From NCBI GenBank assembly GCA_029782355.1, contig JAKOUY010000037.1, positions 248,001-312,000 on the forward strand: a stretch of 64,000 nucleotides of DNA. Reading direction: 5' to 3'. A program made the position numbers and the translations under genes. Positions 1-36,816 of the stretch are shown in pieces. The DNA is from Actinomycetes bacterium. Its GTDB lineage: Bacteria; Actinomycetota; Acidimicrobiia; Acidimicrobiales; Ilumatobacteraceae. Below the pieces are notes generated by a model, which saw nothing but the letters and a program-made list of their open reading frames with translations, was not told the origin of the DNA and did not search any database. The first letter of the stretch is position 1, and each line of letters begins with the position of its first letter.

Positions 1-2373
1 GATCCGGGTGTGCTGGCGGGCCTCGAGACCGTCGAGCGCGCCGCGCAGCGCGTCGAGCTCGTGGAACTGGCGGTCCGGCGCGTCGATCACGGTCAGGGCG
101 TTCTCGAACAGCAGGGCCGACACCGAGTCCGAGCCCCCGATCCGCCCCTGCAGCAGCAGCTGGCGGCCGTGGCCGAGGCAGGCGGTCACCGTCTCGTCAC
201 GACCGGCAGAGGCCCCGACCGCCCCGCGGCGCAGCGTTGCCGCGACCACCCAGTAGGCATCGACGATGGAGCGCAGGACCACGGGCGCGAGCAGGGGAGT
301 CCAGCCGTCGAGCAGCGTGGCCGCCGCCTCGGCCCGTGGACCGCGGCGCAACCGGGCCCGCCAGGTGCGTGCCCGGCGGGTGAGGGTGGCGTCCAGCCGG
401 CGTCGGCAGGCGGCATCGTCGGGGAAGAAGAACTCGGCGCGCAGCAGTCGGCGAATCGCCGCGGCCCGGGCATGCACGGCGTCGACCGGATCGTCGTCGG
501 CCGGGCCGGGGCCGCCGCCGGCCAGCGCATCGCCGTCGATCAGCTGCTGCAGCGCGACCTGGGCGATGGCCGTGTCGACGAAGTGGTGCAGCACGGTGTT
601 GCGGTAGTAGGAGGCGACCAGCCGTTGGTCGTCGGTGATCGCGTAGACCTCGTGGTGCCCGCCGGTGACCCGGGTCAAGCCGTCGTGGCGCAGCAGCGGT
701 TCCAGTGCCGACTCGACCGCGGCATTGGTGGCCAGCCCGTCCGGGTCGGTGAGGGGCAGCCCGGCGTCGTCGATCTCGGCGACGAGCGCGTCCAGTGCGA
801 GGCGCAGCTCGCCGAGGGTGACGGCGCGCCGCTCGGCCAGCAGGACCAGCGCCACCAGTGCAGTCGGGGTGATCGGGGAGACGTCGTTGATCCGTACGGC
901 CACCTCATGGGCCAGGGCGCGCAACTGGTCGCGGTGGCGATCCGGGTCGACGGCGTGCGGTGGGCCGAGCTGGGCGCGCAGGGAGACCGGGGGAGCGAAG
1001 CGGACGTGCATGTCGCCGAGGCCGTAGAACTCGCGGTTGCGGCGGACGTAGCCGACGAAGGAGCGAACCGACTCGGACCGCTTGGTGGAGCCGCGGGCGT
1101 AGCGGGCGAACTCCTCGACGTCGATCAGCTCGTCGTAGGTGATCGCCACCGGGATCAGCTGGTAGTCGGCGCAGCGTCCCTCGAGGTAGGCGTCGACCAC
1201 GTAGGCCAGGAGGCCGAGCTTGGGTGGGCCGAGCTTGCCGGTGCGGCTGCGAGTCCCTTCGATGTTCCACTCCAGGCTGAAGCGCTTGCTGGCCAGGTAG
1301 CCGAGGTACTCGCGCAGCACCCATTTGTAGACCTCGTTGTCGCGGAAGCTGCGCCGGATGTAGATGATCCCGTTGCGCCGGCCGATGGCGCCGAACGGGC
1401 CGACGGCCATGTTGGCCCCGCCGAGGCGGTGGTTCGGTGGCAGCCCGTGGTCGCGCAGGACGATGGCCAGAACGGTGGCGTCGAGGTACGAGCGATGGTT
1501 GGAGAGGAACACCGTCGGGTGGGTGGCGGCCGCCTCGGTGACCATGGCGATCTGCGCCGGGTCGGTGTGCACCCGGCCGCGCATGCCGGTGCGGTGGTAC
1601 AGCCGGGCCACCTCGGCGGTGATGTCCACGGCGTGGCGGTTGAGCGTGGCGACCATCTCGTCGAGGTAGGCGGTGGCTTCGGCGCGCACCTCGGCAACGG
1701 TCCGCCCGCTGGCTGCGGCCAGGCGGGCCACGCCGGCGTCGAACCGACCCTGCTCGGTGACCTCGGCCCGCACCTCGATGGGCACCTTGTGGGCGGCACC
1801 GTGGCGGCGGGTGACCTCGCGCTGGAGGGCGACGCGCGCCTGGCGGGACAGGAAGGAGCGGAACCGGCCGGGCCGGGCCGACCCGGGTCGATCGCCGGCG
1901 CTCGAGCGATCGTCGCCGGGCGGGTGCGGGCCGGCGGCGCGGTCGGTCTCGATCCAGCGCTGGCGGACCTCGGACAGTCGCGCCGGCTCGGCCACCACCA
2001 CCTCGGCGCGGTGTGGGTCGGCACGCTGCAGCCGCGGCTGGAGCCACGCCGGCGGGTGGCGGGGATCGCCCGGTGTCAGGGTGTCGCGCAGCCGGAACCG
2101 CCGCTCGCCGTCCCGCAACGGCGCCAGCCAGGTGACCCCCAGTGGTTGGAGCAGCGGGTCGAGCCCGGCCGCCTCGGCGTCGGCCAGGATCTGGTCGAGG
2201 CGACCGTGGTCGGCGAGGTCGACCACCTGGCCGTCGACGCCGCGCTGGCCGATCCACCCGTGGAGGACGTCGCGCTCGGTGGCCGTGCGTCGATCCAGGA
2301 GGTACACCGTGGCCGGGCCGGCGGGCGACGCGTGCCGACGCGCACTCCCACCCGGCGCGGCCGTTGCGCTCAC
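1..2373 (-). CDS. plsB: Glycerol-3-phosphate 1-O-acyltransferase, PlsB type (3' end cut by window edge)
   Basis: It would acylate the sn-1 position of glycerol-3-phosphate at the membrane, the first step of phospholipid and triacylglycerol synthesis. The minus-strand frame from a GTG at 2373 stays open for 791 codons to the left edge, so only the extreme C-terminus is missing. I see the acyltransferase motif NHRSYLD (His293 and Asp298), a GGANMAVGPFGAI stretch and the EGTRSRTGKL motif, all in PlsB order. The start is a GTG that overlaps the stop of the upstream DUF255 gene (GTGA), so the two are translationally coupled. A second PlsB lies at 30372..32723; that copy carries HRSNFD and EGGRSRTGKL instead, so the two are diverged paralogues. 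Family assignment is secure; which acyl donor and which lipid pool it serves cannot be read from sequence. Confidence 0.9.
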   Translation of the reverse strand, partial: MSATAAPGGSARRHASPAGPATVYLLDRRTATERDVLHGWIGQRGVDGQVVDLADHGRLDQILADAEAAGLDPLLQPLGVTWLAPLRDGERRFRLRDTLTPGDPRHPPAWLQPRLQRADPHRAEVVVAEPARLSEVRQRWIETDRAAGPHPPGDDRSSAGDRPGSARPGRFRSFLSRQARVALQREVTRRHGAAHKVPIEVRAEVTEQGRFDAGVARLAAASGRTVAEVRAEATAYLDEMVATLNRHAVDITAEVARLYHRTGMRGRVHTDPAQIAMVTEAAATHPTVFLSNHRSYLDATVLAIVLRDHGLPPNHRLGGANMAVGPFGAIGRRNGIIYIRRSFRDNEVYKWVLREYLGYLASKRFSLEWNIEGTRSRTGKLGPPKLGLLAYVVDAYLEGRCADYQLIPVAITYDELIDVEEFARYARGSTKRSESVRSFVGYVRRNREFYGLGDMHVRFAPPVSLRAQLGPPHAVDPDRHRDQLRALAHEVAVRINDVSPITPTALVALVLLAERRAVTLGELRLALDALVAEIDDAGLPLTDPDGLATNAAVESALEPLLRHDGLTRVTGGHHEVYAITDDQRLVASYYRNTVLHHFVDTAIAQVALQQLIDGDALAGGGPGPADDDPVDAVHARAAAIRRLLRAEFFFPDDAACRRRLDATLTRRARTWRARLRRGPRAEAAATLLDGWTPLLAPVVLRSIVDAYWVVAATLRRGAVGASAGRDETVTACLGHGRQLLLQGRIGGSDSVSALLFENALTVIDAPDRQFHELDALRGALDGLEARQHTRI

Positions 2374-7265: not shown

Positions 7266-8018
7266 ATGAAGGCTTCCGGGGCCGGGGCGATGCAACGCCG
7301 GCTGCGGCGTGTCGTCCGCCCGTTGGCCAACCGGTTGTGGGACTTCGATCTGCGCGGCTTCGACCGGCTGCCCGCCGAGGGTCCGGCGCTGCTGTGCCCC
7401 AACCACGTCAGCTTCCTCGACAGCGCCTTCTTGATGTTGCAGGTGCCGCGCAACATCAGCTTCGTCGGCAAGGCCGAGTACATGGACTCGTGGAAGACCA
7501 AGTACCTGTTCCCGGCCATGGGCATGATCCCGATCGACCGTGCCGGTGGGGACAAGAGCCAGGCCGCCCTGGACACCGCCGAGGCCGTCCTGCGCCGTGG
7601 GGAGCTGTTCGGCATCTTCCCGGAGGGCACCCGCAGCCGCGACGGCTACCTGTACAAGGGGCGCACCGGTGCCGCCCGCCTGGCGCTGAAGGTCGGTTGC
7701 CCGATCTTCCCGGTTGGCGTGGTGGGGACCCGGGAGATCCAACCGCCGGACGCCAAGGTGCCCAAGCTGCGCAAGCCGGTGACCATCGCCATCGGCCGGC
7801 CGATCAACGTCGACCGGTACCGGTCACGGGCCAACGATCACCTCGTGCTGCGCCAGATCACCGACGAGCTGATGTTCGAGATCCGTGAGCTCACCGGGCA
7901 GACGTACCGCAACGTCTATGCCGGGACGCCGCTGGACGCCGAGCCGCAGCCGGCCAAGGTCGGGGTGCTCGGCATGGACGAGGCCCATCTGGAGCTGGCC
8001 GGCTCCGCCGCCGGCTGA
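7266..8018 (+). CDS. plsC: 1-acyl-sn-glycerol-3-phosphate acyltransferase, PlsC type
   Basis: It would place the second acyl chain on lysophosphatidic acid to give phosphatidic acid. The 250-residue product has the acyltransferase NHVSFLD motif (His47, Asp52), the substrate-binding FPEGTRSRDG motif near residue 120 and a final block VGVVGTREIQPP. An AGGGAGG ribosome binding site lies about ten bases before the ATG at 7266, supporting that start. The last ~45 residues (AGTPLDAEPQPAK and beyond) are polar and probably a tail outside the fold. Together with fabI and PlsB on the other side of mshC it gives the left end of the window a glycerolipid character. Substrate preference is not visible. 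Confidence 0.88.
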   Translation: MKASGAGAMQRRLRRVVRPLANRLWDFDLRGFDRLPAEGPALLCPNHVSFLDSAFLMLQVPRNISFVGKAEYMDSWKTKYLFPAMGMIPIDRAGGDKSQAALDTAEAVLRRGELFGIFPEGTRSRDGYLYKGRTGAARLALKVGCPIFPVGVVGTREIQPPDAKVPKLRKPVTIAIGRPINVDRYRSRANDHLVLRQITDELMFEIRELTGQTYRNVYAGTPLDAEPQPAKVGVLGMDEAHLELAGSAAG

Positions 8019-24211: not shown

Positions 24212-27200
24212 TCAGGCCGGGGAGGTCTCCCCGAAGTACAGCTCGGTGAGGTCCCGCCCGGCCAGCTCGGCCGGCGTGCCGTCCCAGCGGACCCGACCGC
24301 CGGTCATCAGCACGACCCGCGAGGCGACGTGCTCGACCGTGGCGGCGAACTGCTCGACGAGCAGGATGGCCACCCCCTCGGAGGCGATCTGAGCGACGTG
24401 GTGGTACAGCTCGGCCACGATCATCGGGGCCAGGCCCATGGACAGCTCGTCGAGCAGCAGGACCTTCGGGCGCCCGACGAGCGCGCGGGCCAGCGCCAGC
24501 ATCTGCTGCTCACCGCCCGACATCGTGCCGGCCAGCTGCTGGCGGCGCTCCCCGAGGCGCGGGAACCGCTGGTAGGCGATCTCCTCCACCTCCTCCAGCC
24601 GGCTCGATCCGTACGTGGCCATCCACAGGTTCTCGCGCACCGTCAGGTTGGGGAACACGCCGCGGCCTTCGGGGATCGTGCACATGCCCGAGCGCACCAG
24701 CCGACGCGGTGTCACGGTGGAGACGTCGTGGCCGTCGAACCACCGGCTGCCGCGCAGCAGCGGCAACTGGGCGCACGCCGCCCGGATCAGGGTGGTCTTG
24801 CCGGCGCCGTTCGGGCCGAGGATGGCCAGCACGTCGCCGTGGCCGAGGGACAGGTTCACCCCGTGGAGCACCTCGATCGCCCCGTATCCGGCCACGGCGT
24901 CGTCGAGGGCCAGGAGCGCCGAACGGTCCGCCGGAGCGCTGGGTGAGGTGGTGATCGAGCCAGCCGTCGCCGGGACCTCCGCGGGCGGCAGTGCCCGACC
25001 CGCGTCGGCCGTCGCCGGCGCCGATGCCGCCGGCGACGGGTGGGCGGGCGCAGCGCGGCCGGCCACGAGCCGCCCGGCGACGACGATGACCACGGCCAGC
25101 GCGGCGATGATGGCGACCAACCGCCAGCCGCTGGTGTGGATCACCGTGCGCCAGTGGACCAGCGCGGCGACCGCCACGCCGGCAGCCAGCACGACCAGCA
25201 GCGCGCCGCGGCGCGGCGTGGACCGATCGGCGATCGCCGGCAGCAGCGGGACGACACCGAGCAGCCACATCGCCAGGGCGGCGACGAACGACCAGCGCTG
25301 GACGAGACCACCGGTGGTCAGGGCCCACAGGGCGACCGGCCCGGCGAAGGCCACGGCGATCAGGTCCCAGCGGCCGATCAGACCACGGAACCCCGCCGAG
25401 CTGTCCTCGGCGACACCCGCCGGGCTGCGTCCGAGGGTGATGCCGATGGTGCCCGGCAGCACCTGGAGGATGTTCTTCACCAGCTTGGAGCCGACGATGC
25501 CGCTCAGCGCGCTGTTCCCGCCGAGCAGGAAGCCGCCGAACAGGGCGCCGGACACCGCGGCCACGCCGCCGAGCACGGTCAGCATGACGACCGGGAGGCT
25601 CTGGAGGAAGTCGTACTGCTGGGGGCTGACCTTGGTGCCGGCCAGCGCGCCCGAGCAGGCGGCGATGGCGGCCGAGATGGCGAAGGCGGCCACCTTGGTG
25701 ACGGTCACGTTCATCCCCAGGGTGGCCGACGCGGCCGGCGAGTCCTTCAGGGCGATCAGCCGCCGTCCGAGCCGGCTGCGGCGCACCGCCACCACGGCCA
25801 GCCCGAGCACGCAGAACGCCACGGCCAGCAGGATCAGCCGTGAGCGCGGCGAGCCGATGTGCACGCCCGGGATCTTCAGCGGCGGGACGGCGATGTTGCC
25901 GGAGTAGAACGTCTCCTTCTGGTTGAACACCAGCTTGGTGACCAGGACGGCGAACGCTGCGGTGGACAGCGCCAGGTAGACCCCGGACAGACGCAGTGCC
26001 GGCAGGGCCACCAGCGCGCCCACGGCGCCGATGATCAGCATGGTGAGCAGCAGACTGCCCAGGTTGCCGTGCCCGGGGACCTTGGCCATGGCGATGGCCC
26101 CGAGTCCGGCGAAGGTCAGCGGGGCCAGCGACACCTGTCCGGCGTAGCCGGTGAGCGGGACGAGCGACAGGGCGGCGATGGCCAGGATCAGGGCGTTGAT
26201 GAACAGCAGCTGGTTCGGTCGGGTGAGCATGCCCGACACCGCCACGGTGAACCCGACGAGCGCAGCCACGCCGACCAGCGCCGTCGACCAGCGCGGTTCA
26301 CGGTGCTGCTCGCGCAGGCGGACCACGCCGGTGCGCAGCCGGGCCACCGGCATCATCACCAGGGCGATGAACAGCACCAGGGTGGGGATCGCCGGGCGCA
26401 GCCCCGCCAGGCTGAAGCCGAGGAAGGTCTTCGGGAAGTGCTTGGCGTCGGAGTACGTCAGGTAGTACGAGTCGAGCAGACCCAGCAGCAGGGCACCGGC
26501 GAACGTGCGCGGCAGGCTGCGCAGCCGACCGATGATGGCCGCGGCGTAGGCGTTGATCGTCAACATCACCAGCGGTTCGACCTGCAGACCCTGCTCACCG
26601 GCCAGCAGGATCCCGGCCAGGCCGGCCAGGGCCGCGCTGACGGCCCAGGCCATGCCGGCGACCCGGTCGGGGTTGGCGCCGTTCAGCTCGCTGAGGTTGC
26701 GATCGTCGACCACGGCGCGCATCGCCACCCCCGACCGGCTGCGGTACATCAGCAGCCGCAGGAAGATCGCCACGACGATGGCGCAGCCCATGGTGATCAA
26801 CTTGTGGTAGGCGACGTTGATCCCGCCGATCGACAGCTGGTGGCCCTCGAAGAACCGCTGCATCGCCGGCCCCTGCTTGTCCGCCGGCCACAGCCAGTTG
26901 ACCAAGCCCATGATGGCGGCGAACAGGGCCACGGTGACCGACAGGCGGACGACCTCGGTGGTGTCGCGCAGGCCGCGCATGATGAACCGTTCGACGAACC
27001 ACCCGTACGCCGGGCAGCACACGCCGAGGACGAACAGCAGCGCCAGCCACGTCGGCCAGTGCCAGATGTAGTGGAACTGCCAGTAGGTGAACGCGGCCAG
27101 CACGCCGGTGGCCCCGTGCGACAGGTTGAACAAGCCGCTCGTCGTGTAGGTGACCACCAGGCCGCTGGCGATCACCGCGTAGATCGCGCCGGTACTGATC

Positions 27201-27253
27201 CCGATGATCGTGGCGATGAGCAGTTTGTCGACGTTGAAGGCCAGCACCGCCAT
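24212..27253 (-). CDS. Single-chain branched-chain amino acid-type ABC transporter: LivH-LivM permeases fused to LivF ATPase
   Basis: One uninterrupted 1013-residue frame contains three normally separate subunits. Residues about 1-300 are a LivH-type permease ([49 protein letters not shown]). Residues about 320-690 are a LivM-type permease ([56 protein letters not shown]), then extra helices and an Ala/Pro linker. Residues about 780-1013 are a LivF ATPase: Walker [26 protein letters not shown], signature [15 protein letters not shown], Walker [16 protein letters not shown] partner LivG ATPase is at 36112..36816. No LivJ/K binding protein is present in the window. It is 11 bases downstream of the HAD-PlsC gene in a lipid operon, so its cargo may be a lipid or acyl compound rather than leucine; that is inference. 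Confidence 0.9.
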
Positions 27254-27264
27254 GTGGTTCGACC

Positions 27265-28707
27265 CTAGTCGTGCGCGTCGCTGGGCCAGTCCGCCAGCGT
27301 GTCGACGAACTGCTGGCGGACCTCGGCGATCTTCCCGGCGTAGTTGCGGATCGTCCAGTCGTCCACAGGGATCGGTGGGAGGACGGCGACGTCGACCGTT
27401 CCCGGGTTGACGGCCGTGGCGTTGCGGCCGGCCACCAGCTCGGCGTTGCGGATCACGATGGGAACGATCGGGATGCCGGCGGCCATGGCGATGCGGAACG
27501 CGCCCTTCTTGAACGGACCAACGGTGGTCGTGTCCACCCGAGTCCCTTCCGGGGCGATCAGGACCGAGAGGCCCTTGGCGGCCATCTCCTCGATCGGCTT
27601 CAGCGCGGCGACGGCCTTGGCCGAGTTGGCCCGATCGACGAAGGCCACGTCGAGGAACCGGCCGGCCGTGCCGATGATCGGATCGCTGCGCAGCTCGCCC
27701 TTGGCGACGGCGGTGAAGTCGCGCTCGACGATGGCCGTGGCGATGAAGGCGTCGAAGTTGTTGCGGTGGTTGAAGATGAACACGGCCGGGCGAGCGGCGA
27801 AGGCGTTCTCCCGGCCGACCACGTTGAGCGTCACGCCGTTGATGGCCAGCATGGTGCGGGTCCACAGCGTCGTGCCGAGGTTGACGGCGAGGCGCTTGTT
27901 GCGGGTCAGCAGCCCGGCGCCGAGGGCCAGGCCGCCGATCGGCAGCATCGACCCGAAGCCCAGCAGCGAGCGGACCTGGGAGGCCCGGCCGCGGCTGGTG
28001 AAGCGCAGCACCGGCCAGCCGCGGCGCTTGGCGACGGTCTCCATCTGCTTGCCCGGGTTGGTCGGGCGCGGCTGGCCGACCAGGTACATCAGCGAGGTGT
28101 CCTCGTTGCCGTCGGCGTAGAAGTAGCTGGCCGACAGGTCGATGCCGTGCGTCGCGGCGAACTGCTGGGCAGCCGCAGCCTTGCCGGGCCCCCACAGCAC
28201 CGGGGTGACGACCTGGCCGGTCAGCACGCCGTCCTCGTCGGCGAAGCGATTGCACAGCACGTGCTCGATCCCCAGATAGCGGGCCACCGGCTCGACCTGG
28301 AAGGCCGTTGCTGAGGAGGTCAGCACGACGGTGTGACCACGCCGCTGGTGGGCGCGGACGATGGCGCGCATCTCCGGGAACAGCAGGTCGGACAGCTTCT
28401 TCTCGAACAGCCGCAGCCCCATCTCGTCGAGGTCGTCGACGGTGCGACCCTTCCAGCGTGCCGCGGTCAGCGCCAGCAGCTGTTCGAAGCTGCTGGGGTT
28501 CAGCCCGCCGCCGCCGATCACCGCCCCGAGGGCCTTGACCATCTGCGACGGATCGAGGTCGCGGGCCTTGGCCTGGTCGGTGGCCATGTGCCGCGCCGAG
28601 TAGCCCGAGATCAGCGTGCCGTCGAGATCGAAGAAGGCGGCGACCTGTGGCCCGGCCGGGGCGGCCTCGATCTCGGCCACCGTGCCGGGGCGTCGCTGCT
28701 CGCTCAT
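27265..28707 (-). CDS. HAD-IB phosphatase fused to 1-acylglycerol-3-phosphate acyltransferase
   Basis: A 480-residue two-domain protein. Residues 20-235 form a HAD-IB hydrolase: FFDLDGTL (Asp27, Asp29), VVLTSS (Ser131), Lys176 and YADGNEDTSLM (Asp199, Asp203), a phosphoserine-phosphatase-like site. Residues 245-480 form a PlsC acyltransferase with FNHRNNFD (His314, Asp319), APEGTR (385-390) and IPIVPIVIRNAE. The fusion could acylate lysophosphatidic acid and also act on a phosphate ester, so one chain might lead toward diacylglycerol; whether the HAD half really dephosphorylates phosphatidic acid is unproven. Its ATG at 28707 overlaps the WS/DGAT stop (ATGA). Related fusions are known from mycobacteria. 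All catalytic residues in both halves are present. Confidence 0.88.
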   Translation of the reverse strand: MSEQRRPGTVAEIEAAPAGPQVAAFFDLDGTLISGYSARHMATDQAKARDLDPSQMVKALGAVIGGGGLNPSSFEQLLALTAARWKGRTVDDLDEMGLRLFEKKLSDLLFPEMRAIVRAHQRRGHTVVLTSSATAFQVEPVARYLGIEHVLCNRFADEDGVLTGQVVTPVLWGPGKAAAAQQFAATHGIDLSASYFYADGNEDTSLMYLVGQPRPTNPGKQMETVAKRRGWPVLRFTSRGRASQVRSLLGFGSMLPIGGLALGAGLLTRNKRLAVNLGTTLWTRTMLAINGVTLNVVGRENAFAARPAVFIFNHRNNFDAFIATAIVERDFTAVAKGELRSDPIIGTAGRFLDVAFVDRANSAKAVAALKPIEEMAAKGLSVLIAPEGTRVDTTTVGPFKKGAFRIAMAAGIPIVPIVIRNAELVAGRNATAVNPGTVDVAVLPPIPVDDWTIRNYAGKIAEVRQQFVDTLADWPSDAHD

Positions 28708-30302
28708 CGTGACGTCCTCCGCCTCGATCGGGTGGTGGTTCGGGTGGCTCCCGTCGCCTGCCTGGTGGCTCCCCGTTGGGCGGCCTTGACGGGCTTGGCG
28801 GGCTTGGTGGCCTTGGTGGCGGTCTGCTTCGTGGCGGCTCGCTTGGCGCGGTGCCTGGACGACGTCCCGGCCGGGTCCGGGGCGCGCACCGGTTCGGCGG
28901 ACCGCCCGGCGGCGACGACCTCGTCGAATCCGGCACGCAGGCTGCTGCGCAGCAGCTCGGCGTCGGTGAAGGCTGCCGGGTCGACGTTGAACCCGAGGAA
29001 CAGCCGGCCGGCCATCGAGGTCATCGTCGCCATCATCGCCACCCCCGGCAGGGGACCGATGGGGATCTGGCGGACGATGCGCGCCCCGGCCATGTACCGC
29101 GGCACCGGGCTGCCCGGGACGTTGCTGGCCTGCAGGTCGATGCCGACCGACCCGACGTTGATGCTGGCCAGCACCGAGCGGGGCAACCACGCGGTGACCG
29201 GGGAGACCAGGCCGATCAGGTTGAACCCGGCGTCGCTGCGCGCCGTGATGACCCGCTGGCGGATCGTCGCCATCCGGCTCACCGGATCGGTGTCGGCCAC
29301 GGGCACGGTGATGGCGGCCGCCGACCACTGGTTGCCGCCGGCCGGGTCCGTGGCCGAGCGGACGTTGATGGGCATGCCGACGGTGATGGCGTCGATGTCC
29401 ACGCCCATGCCCTCGTGGTAGTGGCGCATCGCGCCGCCGATGGCGGCCAGGTAGGCGTCGTTCAGGGAGCACTGATGGGCGCGGGCCGCGTTGCGCAGGT
29501 CGGCGAGCGGGAGGTCGTAGATCTCGAAGCGCCGCTGCAGGCTGCGGCCGCGCAGGATCGGCGACGGTTCGGTGCCGCTCGGCAGCGCGTGGCGGGCGGC
29601 GTGCACCGCCTGCTGCACGGAACCGAGGGTGCCTGCCGGATCTCGCATCGCCCGGCCGGCCAGACCGCCCGCGGCTCGCATCCGGCGCACGGCCGAGGCG
29701 GCGAGTCCGAGCGGCAGCCGACGCACCGCTCGGCGGGTCAGCTCGACGGACGTCAAGTCCTCCGGCACCGGGAGGGGCGGCATCGCTGGGCGCTGGGTGT
29801 CCCGGTGATCGGTTCGCAGCAGGTGATCGATGACCATCCCGCCGACCCCGTCGATCGTGGCGTGGCTGAGCTTCCAGATCATCGCCGCCCTGGCGCCGTC
29901 GTCGTCGAGGCCTTCCACCAGCACGGCCTCCCACAGCGGCCGGTTCGGGTCCAGCGGATCGTGGAACATCGTCTGGGCGAAGTCCAGCAGCTGGCGGATG
30001 GTGGTGGTCCCCGGGAGCTGGACCCGGCGGAGGTGATAGTCGAGGTCGAAGTCCGGATCGACCACCCAACGCGGCGCGGTCAGCGGGATCACCGGGGCGA
30101 CGACCCGCTGGCGCAGTCGCAGGGCGACGCGCGAGACCCGGTCGACCTCCCACCGCAGGCGGTCCCAGTCGGGCACCACGTCGAAGGTCTCGATCGACAT
30201 GACCGTGGTCCGCGAGCGCACGTCGAGATCGGAGCGGAACATCAGGTAGTCGAACGAGCTGAGCTCGGACCCCCAGTCCAGTCGGGCGTCGATGTCGGTC
30301 AT
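28704..30302 (-). CDS. Wax ester synthase/acyl-CoA:diacylglycerol acyltransferase (WS/DGAT)
   Basis: It would make triacylglycerol or wax esters from diacylglycerol or fatty alcohol and acyl-CoA, at the membrane or lipid-body surface. The 532-residue product shows the family landmarks: DPNRPLWEAVLVEGL (PLW motif), the active site KLSHATIDGVGG (His147, Asp151), SLNDAYLAAIGGAMR (ND motif) and NVPGSPVPRYMAGA. The usual HHxxxDG reads SHxxxDG here; the second His, regarded as catalytic, is kept. The last ~50 residues are a Lys/Arg/Thr/Ala-rich tail (AKRAATKQTATKATKP onward) unlike the fold and possibly for nucleic acid or membrane contact. It overlaps the HAD-PlsC gene and follows PlsB by 69 bases, in the order of the triacylglycerol pathway. 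Confidence 0.92.
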   Translation of the reverse strand: MTDIDARLDWGSELSSFDYLMFRSDLDVRSRTTVMSIETFDVVPDWDRLRWEVDRVSRVALRLRQRVVAPVIPLTAPRWVVDPDFDLDYHLRRVQLPGTTTIRQLLDFAQTMFHDPLDPNRPLWEAVLVEGLDDDGARAAMIWKLSHATIDGVGGMVIDHLLRTDHRDTQRPAMPPLPVPEDLTSVELTRRAVRRLPLGLAASAVRRMRAAGGLAGRAMRDPAGTLGSVQQAVHAARHALPSGTEPSPILRGRSLQRRFEIYDLPLADLRNAARAHQCSLNDAYLAAIGGAMRHYHEGMGVDIDAITVGMPINVRSATDPAGGNQWSAAAITVPVADTDPVSRMATIRQRVITARSDAGFNLIGLVSPVTAWLPRSVLASINVGSVGIDLQASNVPGSPVPRYMAGARIVRQIPIGPLPGVAMMATMTSMAGRLFLGFNVDPAAFTDAELLRSSLRAGFDEVVAAGRSAEPVRAPDPAGTSSRHRAKRAATKQTATKATKPAKPVKAAQRGATRQATGATRTTTRSRRRTSR

Positions 30303-30340
30303 GGTGGTGATCTCCGTGGGTGGTCGGGTGGGACGTCCGG

Positions 30341-30379
30341 TCGGGTCAGCGGGTCGGGTCAGCGGGTCGGGTCAGCGGG
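30341..30379. repeat. Three perfect tandem 13-bp repeats across the PlsB stop codon
   Basis: TCGGGTCAGCGGG is repeated head to tail at 30341, 30354 and 30367; the third copy contains the PlsB stop codon. The period of 13 is not a multiple of three, so a change in copy number would lie mostly outside the reading frame. Confidence 0.9.
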
Positions 30380-32723
30380 TCGAGTCCAGCAGCTCGGCGA
30401 GGGTGCCACCGGCACGCCCGGCGAGGGCGTCGAGATGATCGAGCACCGTGCGCAACCGCTCCACCAGCTCGGCGCGGGCGGTTGCCACGTCGGCGCCGGA
30501 CTCGATGAGACCGAGGTGGGTCGCCAGCTGCAGGCCGGTCTCGAACAGCGGCTTGGACACGGACTCCGGGCTGTGGATCCGCCGCTGCAGCAGCAGCTGG
30601 CGACCGAGACCGGTGCAGGCGCGCAGTACGGCCTTGCGATCCTCGGCCGGGGCGTCGTCGCGCCGGGCCAGCTCGGTGGCGACCACGAAGTAGGCCTCGA
30701 CGAACGAGCGCAACGTCAGGTGGGCCACCACCGGCTGGCAGGCGGCGAGCACCTCGGCGGCTCCCCGAGGGCCGTCGGCCAGCCGGGCCTCCCAGTCGGC
30801 CACGTGGTCGGCCACCCGGGCGGCCAGGTGCTGGCGGAACGCGGCCTTGTCGAAGAAGAAGAACTCGAACTTCAACAGGTCCCGCACGTCCATAGCCGTG
30901 GACCAGAAACGTTCGCGGGCGTCGCCGGCACCATCCGGCTGGGCCGCGGCATGGAGGGCCAACTGGGCGATCGAGTCGCCGAGGAAGTGGTGGACGATCG
31001 AGTTGCGGTAGTAGGCGGCGGCCAGGTGCTGGTCCGGGCCGATGGCGTAGACCACGTCCGGACCGCCCTCCCAGCGAACGACGACGTCGTTGGCGACCAG
31101 CGCGTCGAGGGCGGCGCGCACGCCGTCGTCGGTGGTCAGCGCCCGGGCGCTGCTGGTCATCGGGAGCCCGCGCCGCTCAGCATCGGCATAGGCGGCGCGG
31201 ACCACGGTGAGCACCTGGTCGAAGGTCAGGGCCCGGCCCATGCCCCCGAGCAGCGCCAGGGTCACCAGCGCGGCGGCGGTGATCGGGGTCACGCCGTTGA
31301 TCCGGGTCGCCACCTCGAAGGCCACCTTCTGCAGGGCCAGCCCCTCGTCGGCCATGGCCAGCCGCCCCGGTGGGCCGATCGCGGCGCGCAGCGACACCGG
31401 TTCGCCGAAGCGCACGTAGATCCGCCCGTAGCGCCTCGGCTGGCGGCGCCAGTAGCCGAGGGCCCAGGCCAGACCCTCGGCCGGCTTGGCCTGCCCCCGC
31501 GCCAGCGCGGCGTAGTCGGCGACCTCACGCAGCTGGTCGTAGGTCATCGACGCCGGGATGAACAGCACGTCGTCGGTCCGCCCCTCGCGGTAGGCGTCGA
31601 GCACGTATTTCAGCGCACCCATCTTCGGTGGGAGCAGCTTGCCGGTGCGCGACCGGCCGCCTTCGATGTACCACTCCAGCGGGAACCGCTTCTCGACCAG
31701 GTAGCCGATGTACTCACGGAGGGCGTAGCGGTACACCGGGTCGCCCGTGGTCTCCCGGCGGATGAAGATCGCCCCGGCCCGGCGCATGATCGCCCCCATC
31801 GGCCAGAACGCCATGTTGATCCCGGCCAGGGTGTGGGTGGGTGGGAGGCCGAGCTGGTGCCAGGCGGTGGGCATGACCGAGGCGTCGAAGTTCGAGCGGT
31901 GGGTCGGCAACACGACCGAGGACGTCGTCCTGGCCCGCTCGGCCACGTCCCGCGCCGCGTCGAGGTCGAGGTCCAGATCGGGGTCGTAGCCCTGCCGGCG
32001 GATCGAACGCCCGAGGGCCATCGACACGTCGAGGCGGGCCCGGCCGTACCCGGCCACCATCTCGGCCAGGCAGGCTCTAGCCTCGACCAGCACCTCGGCC
32101 AGCGGGCGACCCTCGCGTTCGGCCAGGTCGGCCAGCCCGGCACGGAACCGCGGCAGGGCGAAGATCTCCTCGCGCACCAGCCGGGGGATCTTGTACTGCG
32201 GTCCGTGGACGCGCACGTCCTCGCGCTCGAGGGCCAGCAGCGCCCGGCGAGCGACGTATCCGGCGAACCCGTCCGACGGCGGCCCGGCCGCACCCGGGCG
32301 CACCGCATCACCTGGCGCGTCGAATCGTTCGGCGAGGTCGGCCACGGTGGCCGGTTCCCCGATGGTCACCTGGGCCCGGTGCGGGTCGGCGCGGAGCAAC
32401 CAGCCGTGCTGCAGTGGCCGCGGCGCACGGGGATCACCCTCGGCGACGACATCGCGCAGCTTGCTGTCGCGCCGACCGTTGCGCTGGCGGGGCTGCCAGG
32501 CGACGCCCATCGGCTGCAGCACCACGTCATGGTCTCGGTCGACGAGGTGCTCGGCCAGGGCGGCCTCCGTGGCCGCCCCACGGTCGAGGACCACCACCTG
32601 CGGCGGGCCCTCGGCCACCGGGTGGGTGGTGGCGATCCAGCGGTCGAGCATCGAGCGCTCGGCCCGGCTGCGGGCGCGCAGCAGGTACACCAGGCGCTGC
32701 CGCCGGCCGAGGTGCTCGGTCAC
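30372..32723 (-). CDS. plsB: Glycerol-3-phosphate 1-O-acyltransferase, PlsB type (second copy)
   Basis: A 783-residue PlsB homologue. The acyltransferase core shows VVLPTHRSNFDASVMPTAW (His275, Asp280), LAGINMAFWPMGAIMRRAGA, FIRRE, YIEGGRSRTGKLLPPKMG and VLFIPASMTYDQL, the ordered PlsB motifs, with long N- and C-terminal helical regions of the PlsB kind. It feeds lysophosphatidic acid into the pathway of the neighbouring HAD-PlsC and WS/DGAT genes. The GTG at 32723 overlaps the stop of the upstream hydrolase (GTGA), which fixes the start. It shares family and layout with the gene at the left edge but differs in motif detail, so a role split (membrane versus storage lipid) is plausible. Not truncated. 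Confidence 0.92.
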   Translation of the reverse strand: MTEHLGRRQRLVYLLRARSRAERSMLDRWIATTHPVAEGPPQVVVLDRGAATEAALAEHLVDRDHDVVLQPMGVAWQPRQRNGRRDSKLRDVVAEGDPRAPRPLQHGWLLRADPHRAQVTIGEPATVADLAERFDAPGDAVRPGAAGPPSDGFAGYVARRALLALEREDVRVHGPQYKIPRLVREEIFALPRFRAGLADLAEREGRPLAEVLVEARACLAEMVAGYGRARLDVSMALGRSIRRQGYDPDLDLDLDAARDVAERARTTSSVVLPTHRSNFDASVMPTAWHQLGLPPTHTLAGINMAFWPMGAIMRRAGAIFIRRETTGDPVYRYALREYIGYLVEKRFPLEWYIEGGRSRTGKLLPPKMGALKYVLDAYREGRTDDVLFIPASMTYDQLREVADYAALARGQAKPAEGLAWALGYWRRQPRRYGRIYVRFGEPVSLRAAIGPPGRLAMADEGLALQKVAFEVATRINGVTPITAAALVTLALLGGMGRALTFDQVLTVVRAAYADAERRGLPMTSSARALTTDDGVRAALDALVANDVVVRWEGGPDVVYAIGPDQHLAAAYYRNSIVHHFLGDSIAQLALHAAAQPDGAGDARERFWSTAMDVRDLLKFEFFFFDKAAFRQHLAARVADHVADWEARLADGPRGAAEVLAACQPVVAHLTLRSFVEAYFVVATELARRDDAPAEDRKAVLRACTGLGRQLLLQRRIHSPESVSKPLFETGLQLATHLGLIESGADVATARAELVERLRTVLDHLDALAGRAGGTLAELLDSTR

Positions 32724-33829
32724 GCCGCGTCGGCCCCCACCACGTCCGTGGCGCGCATCGCCTGCTCGATGAACCGGGCGACGTCGCGGGAGTAGCCGAG
32801 GGCGGAGTGCCCGCCGTTGTACCAGAGGGCCTCGGGGCGCTCCCAGTGCTCCCAGATCCGCCCACCGTGATAGCGGTGATGGACCATCTTGTCGACGATG
32901 CCGGCGTAGATGAACCGTCGGTCGCGAGGCGTCTTCGGCGAGAGCGACAGCGGGGAGATGATCCGGTCGAGTTGGCGAGCCAGCTCGAGGTTGCGGGCCT
33001 CGCCCGGATCGAACGGCTGGGCCTTGTGCCGCTCGATCAGGGCACCGAGCTCGGCGACCGGCGCACCGAGGATCACGCAGTTGAGGTCCGGGTCGAGGTC
33101 GCCGACCAGACCGGCGATCAGCCCGCCGAGGGAGATGCCGAGCACACCGAGGCGGGTGTTGCCCTGGGAACGCAGCGAGGCCAGCATCCGCCGAACGTCC
33201 CACACCGCTTGCAGCGTGCCGTGGAAGTTGTGCAGGGCGTCCTCGCTGGGGTAATGCACGTCCGCCGGGACGCTGGCGCGCCGCGGCCCGTGCAGGGGCA
33301 GCACCGGGCAGGCCACGTTGACGCCCATGTGCCGGTACAACCAGTTGGCCCGGAAGAGGCCGAGATCCATGAGCGGCCGGCCCATGCCCGTGCCATGCAG
33401 GCACACCAGCCACGGGCGTTGCGGGCCGGGATGGCGCATCACCCAGGCGTGGACGGTGCGGTTGCTCTCGTAGGAGAGCCAGCGGGCGCCGGCCGGATCG
33501 TCCGCCGGTGGCTGGTAGTCGCTGGCAAAGGTGATGTGCTGGTAGTGGAAGCGCGCCGCTCGCTCCGGCACCGAGTCGTAGGTGGTCGGCGGCGGGGGAG
33601 CTGCGTAGGCGAGCTCGGGACGGTCGAACCACCCGAGTTCGCGGTAGTGGGCGACGGACTGCTCGATCTCGTGCTCGATCCGGGACAGCTCGGCATCCGG
33701 GCGTGGCGGCCGCCGCCGACGCATGGCCAGCATGGTGATGTCGTCAATGATGCTGTGGTGCCGAAGGGCTGCATGCAACACGTGGTTGCGGCCGAGCTTC
33801 GGCGGGGGGGACACCGAGTTCTCGCTCAT
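32720..33829 (-). CDS. Alpha/beta hydrolase family protein
   Basis: A 369-residue alpha/beta hydrolase, first gene of the lipid operon. The oxyanion region WLVCLHGTGMGRPLMDLG, the nucleophile elbow LGVLGISLGGLIAG (Ser in G-x-S-x-G) and a late GGHSALGYSRDV that supplies the catalytic His are clear. An acidic residue is expected between them. The N-terminal ~110 residues are polar and may cap the active site. No signal peptide, so it should be cytoplasmic, where it might hydrolyse acylglycerols or acyl-CoA. A TACAGT -10 box ends 6 bases before the ATG at 33829, suggesting a leaderless start, and a 21-base palindrome lies about 50 bases upstream between this gene and the divergent esterase. Substrate unknown. 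Confidence 0.82.
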   Translation of the reverse strand: MSENSVSPPPKLGRNHVLHAALRHHSIIDDITMLAMRRRRPPRPDAELSRIEHEIEQSVAHYRELGWFDRPELAYAAPPPPTTYDSVPERAARFHYQHITFASDYQPPADDPAGARWLSYESNRTVHAWVMRHPGPQRPWLVCLHGTGMGRPLMDLGLFRANWLYRHMGVNVACPVLPLHGPRRASVPADVHYPSEDALHNFHGTLQAVWDVRRMLASLRSQGNTRLGVLGISLGGLIAGLVGDLDPDLNCVILGAPVAELGALIERHKAQPFDPGEARNLELARQLDRIISPLSLSPKTPRDRRFIYAGIVDKMVHHRYHGGRIWEHWERPEALWYNGGHSALGYSRDVARFIEQAMRATDVVGADAA

Positions 33830-33835
33830 GTTCGA

Positions 33836-33841
33836 ACTGTA
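33836..33841 (-). promoter_or_regulatory. -10 box of the lipid operon (hydrolase gene), leaderless layout
   Basis: TACAGT on the minus strand with 6 bases to the ATG at 33829. The divergent esterase promoter uses the same hexamer. Confidence 0.5.
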
Positions 33842-33879
33842 GAACCCCCTGCCGGTGACGTCACGGGTCGTGGACGAGA

Positions 33880-33900
33880 AATCTGACGAGTCGTCAGATT
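33880..33900. promoter_or_regulatory. Perfect 21-base palindrome between divergent lipid genes, candidate operator
   Basis: Left arm AATCTGACGA, a central G, then the exact reverse complement of the arm. The right arm ends 17 bases before the esterase -10 box, so it covers that promoter's -35 position, and it lies just upstream of the -35 position of the minus-strand operon. The size and symmetry fit a TetR- or GntR-type repressor dimer. No regulator gene is adjacent. Confidence 0.7.
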
Positions 33901-33917
33901 GTTGCAGGCATACGGGT

Positions 33918-33923
33918 TACAGT
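33918..33923 (+). promoter_or_regulatory. -10 box of the esterase gene, leaderless layout
   Basis: TACAGT with 6 bases to the GTG at 33930. Confidence 0.5.
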
Positions 33924-33929
33924 GGAACG

Positions 33930-35168
33930 GTGACCGTGACGCTGCTCGTGTTGGGAAGCCTCGCGCTGCTGTCGACCGTGGTGGCCGGAGTCCGCGTTCG
34001 CCGCCCGGCGTGGTTCAGCCTGCCGATCCAGCTGGTGAGCATGTTCGTCGGCGAGACCGCCGTGTTCCACGCCGCGGCGCAGGCCGTCGTCACGGCCGCG
34101 CTCGTGGCCGGTGGGGCGCTGCACGGACCGTGGGGCTGGGCCGGGTTCGTCGCGATGGTCGCCAGCATGGTCGGTCTGATCGGGGTGCAGCTCGGGGCCC
34201 GCGCCGCGGCACCCACCCTCGTCGCCGCCGTGGCCCCGCTGACCGGGCCGGTGACGATCACCCGCCCGCCGCTTCGCCGCCTGCTGCGCCCGCTGCACAT
34301 GGACCGCACGTGCGTCGAGGTGATTCGCGACATCCCCTATGGCCCGGACAAGCGCCAGCGTCTCGACCTGTACCGGCCGACGGGTGCGGGCGGGCCGTGG
34401 CCGGTGCTGTTCCACATCCACGGCGGCGGCTGGGTCAGTGGGGACAAGCGCAGCCAGGGCCTGCCGCTGCTCCACGAAGCGGCGCGTCGTGGCTACCTCG
34501 GGGTCAGCGTCAACTACCGCCTGGCGCCACGCCACAAGTACCCGGCGTGGATCCACGACGTCAAGGCCGCCCTGGTGTGGGTTCGCCGGCACGTGGCCGA
34601 GCACGGCGGCGATCCGTCGTGGATCGCCACCACCGGCGGGTCGGCCGGCGGTCACCTGGCAGCGGTGCTGGCGACGACGCCGAACGAGCCATCGCTGCAG
34701 CCCGACGCCATCGACGTCGACACGGCGGTGGATGCCTGCGTCCCGGTGTACGGCGCCTTCGACTTCACCGATCGGTGGGGCATCCGGGCTTCGACCTCGA
34801 TGGTCGGGTTCCTGGAGAAGATGGTCATGTCCTCGAAGCTGGCGGCGGACCGGGCCACCTGGGAGTTGGTGTCCCCGGCCTATCGCGGCGACGCCGCGAC
34901 GCCGCCGTTCTTCGTCATCCACGGGGCCATCGACGTGCTGCTGTACCGGGAGGAGACCCGCGCCTTCGTCGAGCACCTGCGCGCCGTATCGGGCGCCCCG
35001 GTGCTGTACGCCGAGATCCCTCACGCCCAACACGCCTTCGACCTGATGGTCTCGGTGCGTGCCCTGGCGATGGCGCAGGCCGTGGTGGCCTTCCTCGATG
35101 CGGTGCGCGCCGGGCGCGCTCAGCCCGGCTCGGACTCGTGGCCCGGCCGGATGGTCAACCCGCGATAG
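33930..35168 (+). CDS. Membrane-anchored alpha/beta hydrolase, hormone-sensitive-lipase-like esterase
   Basis: A 412-residue protein. The first ~110 residues hold about three hydrophobic segments (TLLVLGSLALLSTVVAGV; AQAVVTAALVAGGAL; AGFVAMVASMVGLIGVQ), then a catalytic domain with HIHGGGWVSGDKR (HGGG oxyanion hole), TTGGSAGGHLAAV (nucleophile Ser in GGSAGG), a late VIHGAIDVLLY acid and IPHAQHAFDL with the catalytic His. This is the HSL/acetyl-esterase class, anchored in the membrane. The GTG at 33930 follows a leaderless-type promoter; an upstream in-frame extension would overlap that promoter. It probably turns over acyl esters under the same control as the divergent lipid operon. Its last 49 bases overlap the convergent gpsA gene. 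Confidence 0.85.
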   Translation: MTVTLLVLGSLALLSTVVAGVRVRRPAWFSLPIQLVSMFVGETAVFHAAAQAVVTAALVAGGALHGPWGWAGFVAMVASMVGLIGVQLGARAAAPTLVAAVAPLTGPVTITRPPLRRLLRPLHMDRTCVEVIRDIPYGPDKRQRLDLYRPTGAGGPWPVLFHIHGGGWVSGDKRSQGLPLLHEAARRGYLGVSVNYRLAPRHKYPAWIHDVKAALVWVRRHVAEHGGDPSWIATTGGSAGGHLAAVLATTPNEPSLQPDAIDVDTAVDACVPVYGAFDFTDRWGIRASTSMVGFLEKMVMSSKLAADRATWELVSPAYRGDAATPPFFVIHGAIDVLLYREETRAFVEHLRAVSGAPVLYAEIPHAQHAFDLMVSVRALAMAQAVVAFLDAVRAGRAQPGSDSWPGRMVNPR

Positions 35169-36112
35169 GACGCGATCGGCGGGTTCTGGCCGGTGACCAC
35201 CTTGTACATCTCCTCATGGACGGGCATGAACACGTCGTAGCGGGCCGCCAGCTCGTGGGCGGTGACCGCGGTGGTCAGTCCCTCGGCCACCATCTTCATC
35301 TCGCCGGTGATCTCCGCCAGCGAGCGGCCCAGGCCGAGCTGCTCGCCGACCGTGCGATTGCGGCTGTTCGGGCTCATGCAGGTAACGATGAGGTCGCCCA
35401 TGCCGGCGAGCCCGGCAAAGGTGATCGCCTCGCCGCCCATCGCCACGCCGAGACGGGTCAGCTCGGCCAGGCCGCGGGTCATCACCATCGACCGGGTGTT
35501 GTCACCGACGCCGAGGCCCTGGGCGATGCCGCAGGCGATGGCCACCACGTTCTTCAGCGCGCCACCGAGCTCACAGCCGACGACGTCGTGGTTGGTGTAC
35601 ACGCGGAACAGCCCGCTGGACAGCACGCCCTGGATCGCCCGGGCCACCGACAGGTCGTGGGTGGCGATGACGCTGGCCGCAGCTTGCCCGGCGAGGATCT
35701 CCCGGGCGATGTTCGGTCCGGTCAGGGTGGCCACCGGATGATCGGGCAGCTCGTCGGCGATGACCTCGGTCATCCGCAGCAGCGAGCCGCGCTCGAACCC
35801 TTTCGACAGGCTGACCACCGGGATCCACGGGCGGACGTACGGCTTGGCATCGGCCAGGGTGGCCCGCACCGCCGTGGTCGGCACGCCCACGATCAACAGC
35901 TCGGCGTGGTGCACGGCCCGTTGCAGATCGTCGGTGGCGGCCAGCTGGTCGGCCAGGTTCAACCCGGGGAGGTAGGCCGTGTTGCGGTGCTCGAGATTGA
36001 TCTCGGCGACCACCTCGGCGTTGCGCGCCCACACCAGCGTGTCGTGCTTGCGGGCCACCATGCTGGCCACGGTGGTCCCCCACGAGCCGCCGCCGAGGAC
36101 GGTGACGCGCAT
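35120..36112 (-). CDS. gpsA: NAD(P)-dependent glycerol-3-phosphate dehydrogenase
   Basis: It reduces dihydroxyacetone phosphate to sn-glycerol-3-phosphate, the backbone for all glycerolipids. The 330-residue product starts MRVTVLGGGSWGTTVA (Rossmann GxGxxG), has VSLSKGFE, LTGPNIAREI, and the catalytic Lys in GALKNVVAIACGIAQGLGVGDNTR, followed by GLAGMGDLIVTCMS-SRN. Length and motif order are normal. Its ATG at 36112 overlaps the livG stop by one base (TGATG), so livG and gpsA are cotranscribed. Next to PlsB, HAD-PlsC and WS/DGAT it would supply their substrate. The 3' end overlaps the convergent esterase by 49 bases, an unusually long overlap. Confidence 0.96.
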   Translation of the reverse strand: MRVTVLGGGSWGTTVASMVARKHDTLVWARNAEVVAEINLEHRNTAYLPGLNLADQLAATDDLQRAVHHAELLIVGVPTTAVRATLADAKPYVRPWIPVVSLSKGFERGSLLRMTEVIADELPDHPVATLTGPNIAREILAGQAAASVIATHDLSVARAIQGVLSSGLFRVYTNHDVVGCELGGALKNVVAIACGIAQGLGVGDNTRSMVMTRGLAELTRLGVAMGGEAITFAGLAGMGDLIVTCMSPNSRNRTVGEQLGLGRSLAEITGEMKMVAEGLTTAVTAHELAARYDVFMPVHEEMYKVVTGQNPPIASYRGLTIRPGHESEPG

Positions 36113-36816
36113 CAGCCGGCGCCCAGGTAGGCGTCGATCACCGCGGGGTGCTCGCGCACCTCGGCGGGCGGGCCGCTGGCGATGATCCGGCCGAGGTCGA
36201 GGACGAACAGGCGGTCGCAGATCTCCATGACCAACTCGACGTCGTGCTCGACGAGCAGCACGGCGATGGCCTCGGCAGCCAGCTGGCGGAGCAGGGCGCC
36301 GAGCCGGGAGCTCTCCTCGTGGCCGAGCCCGGAGGCCGGCTCGTCGAGCAGCAGCACCTGCGGTTCGGTGGCCAGCGCCCTGGCCACCTCCAGCAGCCGG
36401 GCGGTGCCGGTGGGCAGGTCACCGGCGGCGACGTCGGCAACGTGGCTGATGCCGACCCGCTCGAGCAGCTCGCCGGCGACCCGGCGCGGCGCCGCCCGGC
36501 GGGCGATCTCCGCGGCGACCTGGACGTTCTCGAACACGCTGAGCGAGGAGAACAGCTCCAGGCGCTGGAACGTGCGGGCGATCCCGCCGCGCGCCCGCCG
36601 GTGGGTCGGCAGGCGGGTGATGTCCTCGCCGCCCAGGGTGACCCGTCCGCTGGTCGGTGCGATCATGCCGGAGACCACGTTGAACAGGGTCGTCTTGCCG
36701 GCCCCGTTGGGACCGATCAGCCCGGTGACGTGGCCGGCGGCGGCCGCCAGCGAGGCTTCGTTAACCGCCAGGACCCCGCCGAAGCGAACCGAGACGGAGT
36801 CGACGGCGAGGGGCAT
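36112..36816 (-). CDS. livG: LivG-type ABC transporter ATP-binding protein
   Basis: A 234-residue ATPase of the branched-chain amino acid transporter class. Walker A is GPNGAGKTT, the LivG-specific GIARTFQRLELFSSLSVFENV and Walker B VLLLDEPASGLGHEES are clear, and LLVEHDVELVMEICDRLFVLDLG is the usual H-loop region. The signature motif reads LPTGTARLLEVARAL, a departure from the usual LPYG-QRR-LEIARAL. The natural partner is the LivH-LivM-LivF fusion at 24212..27253, which lacks a LivG half; separation by about 9 kb in the same orientation is unusual. It leads a two-gene operon with gpsA. A TAGCCT -10 box lies 8 bases before the ATG at 36816 and an inverted repeat sits just upstream. Confidence 0.9.
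   Translation of the reverse strand: MPLAVDSVSVRFGGVLAVNEASLAAAAGHVTGLIGPNGAGKTTLFNVVSGMIAPTSGRVTLGGEDITRLPTHRRARGGIARTFQRLELFSSLSVFENVQVAAEIARRAAPRRVAGELLERVGISHVADVAAGDLPTGTARLLEVARALATEPQVLLLDEPASGLGHEESSRLGALLRQLAAEAIAVLLVEHDVELVMEICDRLFVLDLGRIIASGPPAEVREHPAVIDAYLGAG

Follow-up and report, generated by a model that had tools for sequence, protein, structure and literature searches.

A Liv-type importer core attached to a Kennedy operon in an Ilumatobacteraceae genome and its possible role in storage-lipid synthesis

Genes of the lipid and transporter block

The locus described here lies in a stretch of 64,000 nucleotides (the window, G000:C29:248001-312000; 71% G+C) from a draft genome of 3.79 Mb (40 contigs, 98% complete) that is placed by inference in the Ilumatobacteraceae, referred to below as the family. 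On its minus strand, genes for the synthesis of triacylglycerol are packed closely with the core of an ATP-binding cassette (ABC) importer of the Liv/HAAT type. This core consists of a pair of BPD_transp_2 permease domains and one cytosolic ATPase each of the LivF and LivG types (Table 1), and the nucleotide-binding and signature motifs of both ATPases are intact by eye in an alignment, matching those of the closest operon found to the window transporter, that of Ilumatobacter sp. GEM2.Bin45 (locus L117, in genome G579). The window genome does have transporter and lipid genes side by side, and none of the other loci examined shows this association.

The gene set was obtained by a codon-usage frame scan, gene calling and Pfam and NCBIfam family searches. 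It forms two minus-strand units that are 1290 bp apart, in order of transcription livG-gpsA and hydrolase-PlsB-WS/DGAT-HAD-PlsC-LivHMF (33829-24212). The first-pass annotation had described one 12-kb block on this strand, with an almost unbroken run from the hydrolase gene to LivHMF and then livG-gpsA; its genes and coordinates hold, but a LipQ-like esterase gene on the plus strand stands between the hydrolase gene, from which it is divergent, and gpsA, with which it is convergent, and there are therefore two units. Genes overlap at hydrolase/PlsB and WS/DGAT/HAD-PlsC (4 bp each) and at livG/gpsA (1 bp), while gaps of 69 bp and 11 bp separate PlsB from WS/DGAT and HAD-PlsC from LivHMF, respectively. 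The gpsA gene is one of two copies in the genome.

Table 1. Features of the block, with window positions and family matches
Feature	Position	Strand	Description
LivH-LivM-LivF fusion (LivHMF)	24212..27253	-	1013 amino acids (aa); two Liv permease domains, linker, LivF-type ATPase; two BPD_transp_2 stretches and ABC_tran in a single open frame (Pfam); best NCBIfam matches LivF/UrtE, below cut-off
HAD-PlsC	27265..28707	-	480 aa; HAD-IB phosphatase-like domain and 1-acylglycerol-3-phosphate acyltransferase (AGPAT); PF12710, PF01553; TIGR01490 above cut-off; AGP_acyltrn just below (100.8 bits, cut-off 102.95)
WS/DGAT	28704..30302	-	532 aa; PF03007 and PF06974 above cut-off; TIGR02946 below (290.4 bits, cut-off 309.95)
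PlsB, glycerol-3-phosphate acyltransferase	30372..32723	-	783 aa; GPAT_C and Acyltransferase; passes equivalog NF002886 (815.7 bits, cut-off 721)
Hydrolase-like protein	32720..33829	-	369 aa; alpha/beta-hydrolase character judged by eye; without a Pfam match; weak RcgR-family NCBIfam match (4.6e-08), far below cut-off
LipQ-like esterase	33930..35168	+	BD-FAE and Abhydrolase_3 above cut-off; best NCBIfam match EstLipQMycob (9e-75), below cut-off; start by gene calling
gpsA, NAD(P)H glycerol-3-phosphate dehydrogenase	35120..36112	-	PF01210/PF07479; NF000942 above cut-off
livG	36112..36816	-	234 aa; ABC_tran and BCA_ABC_TP_C above cut-off

The genes next downstream of LivHMF, on the same strand at a distance of 275 bp, are a CoxSLM-like set, part of a group of molybdenum-hydroxylase, short-chain dehydrogenase/reductase (SDR) and flavin-monooxygenase genes (17.7-24 kb), and it could be argued that LivHMF belongs with these and not with the lipid operon, the more so as relatives of the transporter sit in catabolic clusters. 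The 11-bp gap to HAD-PlsC, compared to 275 bp to coxS, speaks against such an arrangement, as does the fact that a CoxL-like or CoxS-like gene is labelled beside none of 24 loci of a wider clade of relatives, and it is the least probable of the explanations weighed here.

The lipid genes correspond to the Kennedy operon already known from actinobacteria, where such a block is ordinary, although few Ilumatobacteraceae genomes have it. The block has its marks, namely the PlsB equivalog, PlsC fused to an HAD domain and WS/DGAT in the same run. In Rhodococcus jostii, atf9-plsB-plsC is reported to be transcribed as an operon whose PlsC is an AGPAT-HAD fusion with the HAD domain proposed as a possible phosphatase (PMC4850399), and in Mycobacterium tuberculosis Rv2482c, Rv2483c, Rv2484c and LipQ (Rv2485c) are described as adjoining one another (PMC10699116). 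As first proposed, the enzymes of the block do cover the provision of glycerol-3-phosphate, both acylations, possibly the removal of the phosphate, and the diacylglycerol acyltransferase step, a coverage that has been published before for atf9-plsB-plsC (PMC4850399). What is new at this locus is the transporter, the fat-storage genes being already known.

Two further genes of this kind lie elsewhere in the window. A second PlsB, 45% identical to that of the block, occupies window positions 1-2307 on the minus strand and extends to the left on the contig (C29), and a separate PlsC-like acyltransferase was recognized by eye at 7290-8018 on the plus strand from an HX4D-type motif.

Transporter and lipid genes in relatives

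The gene order around the transporter was compared in relatives at several levels. The genus-level search contained one genome; LivHMF matches were present in 41 of 221 genomes of the family (E<=1e-100) and 67 of 198 of the order (E<=1e-60), the window genome being counted in both. Orthologues at 48-65% identity occur in 27 family genomes from three other genera, and 25 of the 27 loci were fetched, each with between 3.3 and 20 kb of sequence; the partial matches in G615 and G618 were excluded. A substrate-binding protein (SBP) is encoded directly upstream of LivHM in all 25, LivG follows LivHM in all 24 with a long enough contig, and LivF and a small protein come next in all 22 that reach further, so that the family operon, where contigs reach, is a single run of SBP-LivHM-LivG-LivF-small protein. 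Matches to HAD-PlsC, PlsB, WS/DGAT, LipQ or GpsA were found in 0/25 of these stretches (tblastn, E<=1e-5). In the wider clade set of 24 loci, which includes L117, an SBP gene adjoins LivHM in 23 and a CoA-ligase-like gene takes its place in L159; livG is on the other strand in L158, L147 has no calls for LivG or LivF, and none of the other 26 LivHM proteins in the set was called as a LivHM-LivF fusion.

The small protein (105-195 aa) that follows LivF, of membrane type, is present in 22/22 complete family operons and in most wider clade loci, and is possibly an unnamed accessory subunit. The one member tested, that of the Ilumatobacter operon (L117:13749-14132), matched no Pfam family above its cut-off and nothing in NCBIfam at 1e-10.

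The comparison was also made from the lipid side. HAD-PlsC orthologues (E<=1e-50) are found in 17 of 395 genomes of the class, including the window genome, and 15 of the 17 places besides its own were inspected (partial matches in G491 and G542 were excluded). PlsB lies within the stretch in seven of the 15 (L121, L122, L123, L125, L126, L129 and L101), and L123 carries gpsA and WS/DGAT in addition, while L133 and L134 carry LipQ. Within the family, PlsB (E<=1e-40) is limited to two of 221 genomes, the window genome and G697, and in the latter LipQ-WS/DGAT-HAD-PlsC-PlsB share a strand, with no transporter attached. When 101 family genomes were searched for HAD-PlsC, no further orthologue came up (the next best match has 32% identity), although G697, which is outside that sample, has one at 51%. 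No orthologue of the window transporter is located beside the lipid block in the 15 class loci or in G697; L123 has a LivF-like match (42% alike) at a distance of some 6.3 kb from PlsB, and L128, L130 and L131 have LivG-like ATPase matches of 31-33%.

A conserved Liv-lipid operon is thus rejected by the gene order in the family, clade and HAD-PlsC loci. The first-pass annotation had suggested that the transporter serves the same lipid process, and had named as evidence against this a gene order in relatives with the Liv genes next to an amino-acid binding protein and away from lipid genes; the order found in the family, with 25/25 orthologues linked to an SBP gene and 0/25 to lipid genes, is of that kind, and a conserved link is not supported. 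Within the window genome the suggestion is plausible, as each piece of the transporter lies close up against a lipid gene. Among the loci examined, it is only in the window genome that a LivHM-LivF fusion follows HAD-PlsC at 11 bp, that livG and a second gpsA overlap by 1 bp, and that the matching SBP and an acyl-CoA ligase are encoded on another contig.

A recurrent placement of WS/DGAT beside Liv genes was considered separately and rejected, as WS/DGAT-like matches occur in 3/24 wider clade loci (two of them from one genus), 0/18 family loci and 0/20 control stretches (both defined below). In the window genome itself, two of seven WS/DGAT genes are within 3 kb of a BPD_transp_2 match, for which a hand-calculated binomial P of about 0.04 is post hoc and weak. 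A Liv system of a different clade is also present in this genome on contig C22 (about 18.9-26.0 kb; L135:5889-13027), where genes for a LivG-like ATPase and two permeases are followed by a 152-aa gene and then by WS/DGAT and CoA-ligase-like genes, every gene having the same orientation.

A binding protein and ligase in trans, and the likely substrate

The block lacks a gene for a Peripla_BP_6 binding protein. The first-pass annotation had noted the absence of a Liv binding protein, which is accurate for the block but not for the genome, where there are 12 Peripla_BP_6 matches alongside 36 BPD_transp_2 matches (some of the latter perhaps sugar-type). One of the Peripla_BP_6 proteins, an orphan SBP on contig C13 (G000:C13:253706-255133), is the nearest relative found of the SBP of the Ilumatobacter operon. 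The identities to that operon are 64% for LivHM, 68.5% for LivG, 59-61% for LivF and 62% for the C13 SBP, and in trees each of the four is the sister of its L117 counterpart (support 100/100, 99/95, 96/86 and 100/99, respectively). A locus in another genome of the family (L244, in G217) is the L117 locus itself, with a 100% match to its genes; HAD-PlsC matches in G217 and G579 also have identical coordinates on contigs of equal number, and it is on these grounds that the window is placed in the family. The tree support argues that LivHMF, LivG and the C13 SBP are partners, each paired with one intact L117 operon.

An acyl-CoA ligase encoded next to the C13 SBP is 65% identical to the L117 ligase (no tree was built). 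The ligase gene is convergent just after the operon in L117 and convergent 87 bp after the SBP gene on C13, and the C13 layout looks as if four genes between SBP and ligase had been lifted out. In the other two genera, the ligase, where seen, is some kilobases from the operon with genes between.

The absence of an SBP gene from the block could instead mean that the core exports a lipid-related product or shifts a lipid between leaflets, as was also raised in the first-pass annotation, and LivG does resemble LptB (TIGR04406, 174.7 bits), although below the cut-off of 240. The permease domains are BPD_transp_2, however, which is a family of import permeases, and an orthologous SBP is present in trans. 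Export is very unlikely because the relatives, 25 of which were fetched as SBP-linked operons, look like binding-protein-dependent importers.

Two other systems in the window genome are related. Contig C19 (L140:5054-11918) carries a paralogous operon of the form SBP-SBP-LivHM-LivG-LivF-small protein, near genes for ChsH2-like, MaoC, acyl-CoA dehydrogenase, thiolase and carotenoid-oxygenase (RPE65) proteins, and the ChsH2, thiolase, MaoC and acyl-CoA dehydrogenase genes were identified there by Pfam. A second orphan binding protein on contig C7 (L171:9235-10512) groups with the C19 SBPs and lies about 4-6 kb from thiolase-, ChsH2- and CaiB-like genes.

Indications of the substrate come from the neighbors of the transporter in relatives. 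Six classes of side-chain breakdown gene were counted in 18 family loci no shorter than 14 kb (12 from one genus and six from another; six orthologue loci under 14 kb and L244, the L117 copy, were excluded) and in 20 arbitrary 20-kb control stretches from clade genomes, four from the family and the rest from the wider clade. At least three classes were present in 16/18 family loci and 1/20 controls, the latter being L270, which itself has three. The queries came from L117, L140, L148 and L231, which therefore match by construction, and without L231, the one query source among the 18, the count is 15/17. The individual classes are ChsH2-type (18/18 vs. 0/20), thiolase (16/18 vs. 0/20), CoA ligase (13/18 vs. 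3/20), enoyl-CoA hydratase (10/18 vs. 2/20), CaiB-type transferase (9/18 vs. 0/20) and acyl-CoA dehydrogenase (6/18 vs. 1/20). Pfam searches of L231 identified the ChsH2 OB-fold, zinc ribbon, thiolase, CoA-transferase III, AMP-binding and enoyl-CoA hydratase domains. In L117 the neighbors other than the ligase are P450, SDR, amidohydrolase-like, arylsulfatase-like and Rv3169-family genes.

Both the C13 and L117 ligases exceed the cut-off of the acyl-CoA synthetase model NF005863. Given these ligases and the breakdown-gene context, the most likely substrate is a hydrophobic carboxylic acid, and the combination of ChsH2 and thiolase, which we take to be a mark of steroid-like or isoprenoid acids, would point to one of these. 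Identification of the C13 ligase as a steroid-24-oyl-CoA synthetase or FadD3 was rejected, the scores being far below the cut-offs, and an AlphaFold model of the L117 SBP, based on four sequences, had a mean pLDDT of 50.

The domain families of the transporter are those of Liv and Urt systems, and a true importer of branched-chain amino acids or urea that is in the block by accident would account for them. Yet the scores for LivF, LivG, UrtE and UrtD are far below their cut-offs (184 vs. 441 and 286; 219 vs. 362; 191 vs. 304), the family relatives sit among acyl-CoA breakdown genes, and the C13 SBP matches solved binding proteins only marginally (best E 0.0024), making this explanation improbable.

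Proposed import and storage, and comparison with known systems

From gene content and order, we give about an even chance to the proposal that, in the lineage of the window, a known Kennedy operon took in a Liv/HAAT-type importer core and that carboxylic-acid import thereby became wired to storage-lipid synthesis. A more specific and rather doubtful version is that of a split importer, with the SBP and CoA ligase encoded in one place and its translocation core in the triacylglycerol operon, in which uptake of a steroid-like, isoprenoid or fatty acid is set with lipid storage. The fusion may be a scar, formed when livG was removed from LivHM-LivG-LivF and LivHM was left beside LivF, and the pump would still work as an importer. 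The hydrophobic carboxylic acid, whether steroid-like, isoprenoid or fatty, would be captured by the C13 SBP and enter through LivHM with the ATPases LivG and LivF, and the C13 ligase would form its CoA ester. The ester, or acyl-CoA and acetyl- or propionyl-CoA derived from it, could then be stored by way of PlsB, HAD-PlsC and WS/DGAT, with the LivHM permease and LivF expressed together with the acyltransferases and LivG with gpsA.

Several observations weigh against this proposal. A single draft genome has the arrangement, and in every other locus examined the lipid block and the transporter lie apart. No copy of the small protein goes with the window system, a profile search finding only that of the C19 paralogue, and the window LivF is on a long branch (1.14 vs. 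0.39), which means that relaxed constraint is possible. The breakdown-gene context is also uneven. In the wider clade 7/24 loci reach three classes and 9/24 show none, and these nine include all six loci of the f19 group, which is nearest to the window and L117 in the LivHM tree. L117, the closest operon, has the ligase only of the six classes; the case for the substrate consequently rests on two genera, and in the window no ChsH2-, thiolase- or CoA-ligase-like gene of the relatives' kind scores over 80 bits.

Chance relocation, in which a rearrangement moved the importer core into the lipid locus and carried it there without a functional tie, is a serious rival because there is one genome only and LivF evolves fast, and it is quite possible. 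The lack of the transporter-lipid pairing in any other examined locus, the abundance of BPD_transp_2 genes in the genome, which makes such neighbors common, the labile gene order (as with livG in L158) and the long LivF branch all speak for it. It does not readily explain why two complementary pieces of one transporter should share a lipid locus, where each either overlaps a lipid gene or lies no more than 11 bp from one, nor why the frames and ABC motifs are intact and the matching SBP and ligase have been kept.

Amino-acid import is the function routinely assigned to Liv-type permeases in annotation. A group of them in Acidimicrobiia looks like one of carboxylic-acid importers, both from the SBP gene by the permease in nearly all loci examined and, in two genera, from the ChsH2-type, thiolase and acyl-CoA ligase genes nearby. 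If the proposed tie of such an importer to fat storage is true, the locus would make it possible to test directly, by genetics, where actinobacteria in the environment channel the lipophilic acids that they scavenge.

Among the titles listed in the literature on Liv-type transporters together with triacylglycerol, with degradation of steroids or bile acids, or with fatty-acid uptake, no counterpart of this arrangement is described for a Liv-type importer. The closest system found in sequence is the L117 operon, which has orthologous LivHM, LivG and LivF as well as the SBP and CoA ligase that the window genome has in trans; in the window system, the SBP and ligase are on another contig, LivF is fused, livG has moved, the small protein is missing and lipid genes are attached. 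In function, the proposed role is like that of the R. jostii ABC transporter CamABCD, which is described as serving the re-uptake of cholate metabolites (PMC8399759, PMC6678751), this too being ABC uptake of steroid-derived acids by an actinobacterium. Similar WS/DGAT clusters, with glycerol-3-phosphate dehydrogenase among the nearby genes, are described in Ilumatobacter and Microthrix, and the word "transporter" does not occur in the text of that report (PMC10351704). A lipid transporter, ltp1, is clustered with other triacylglycerol genes and outside the atf9 operon (PMC4850399). The window block shares PlsB, the HAD-AGPAT fusion, WS/DGAT and a LipQ neighbor with the published Kennedy operons, and differs from them in its gene order, in LipQ being on the opposite strand, in an extra hydrolase and in the Liv importer core attached to it.

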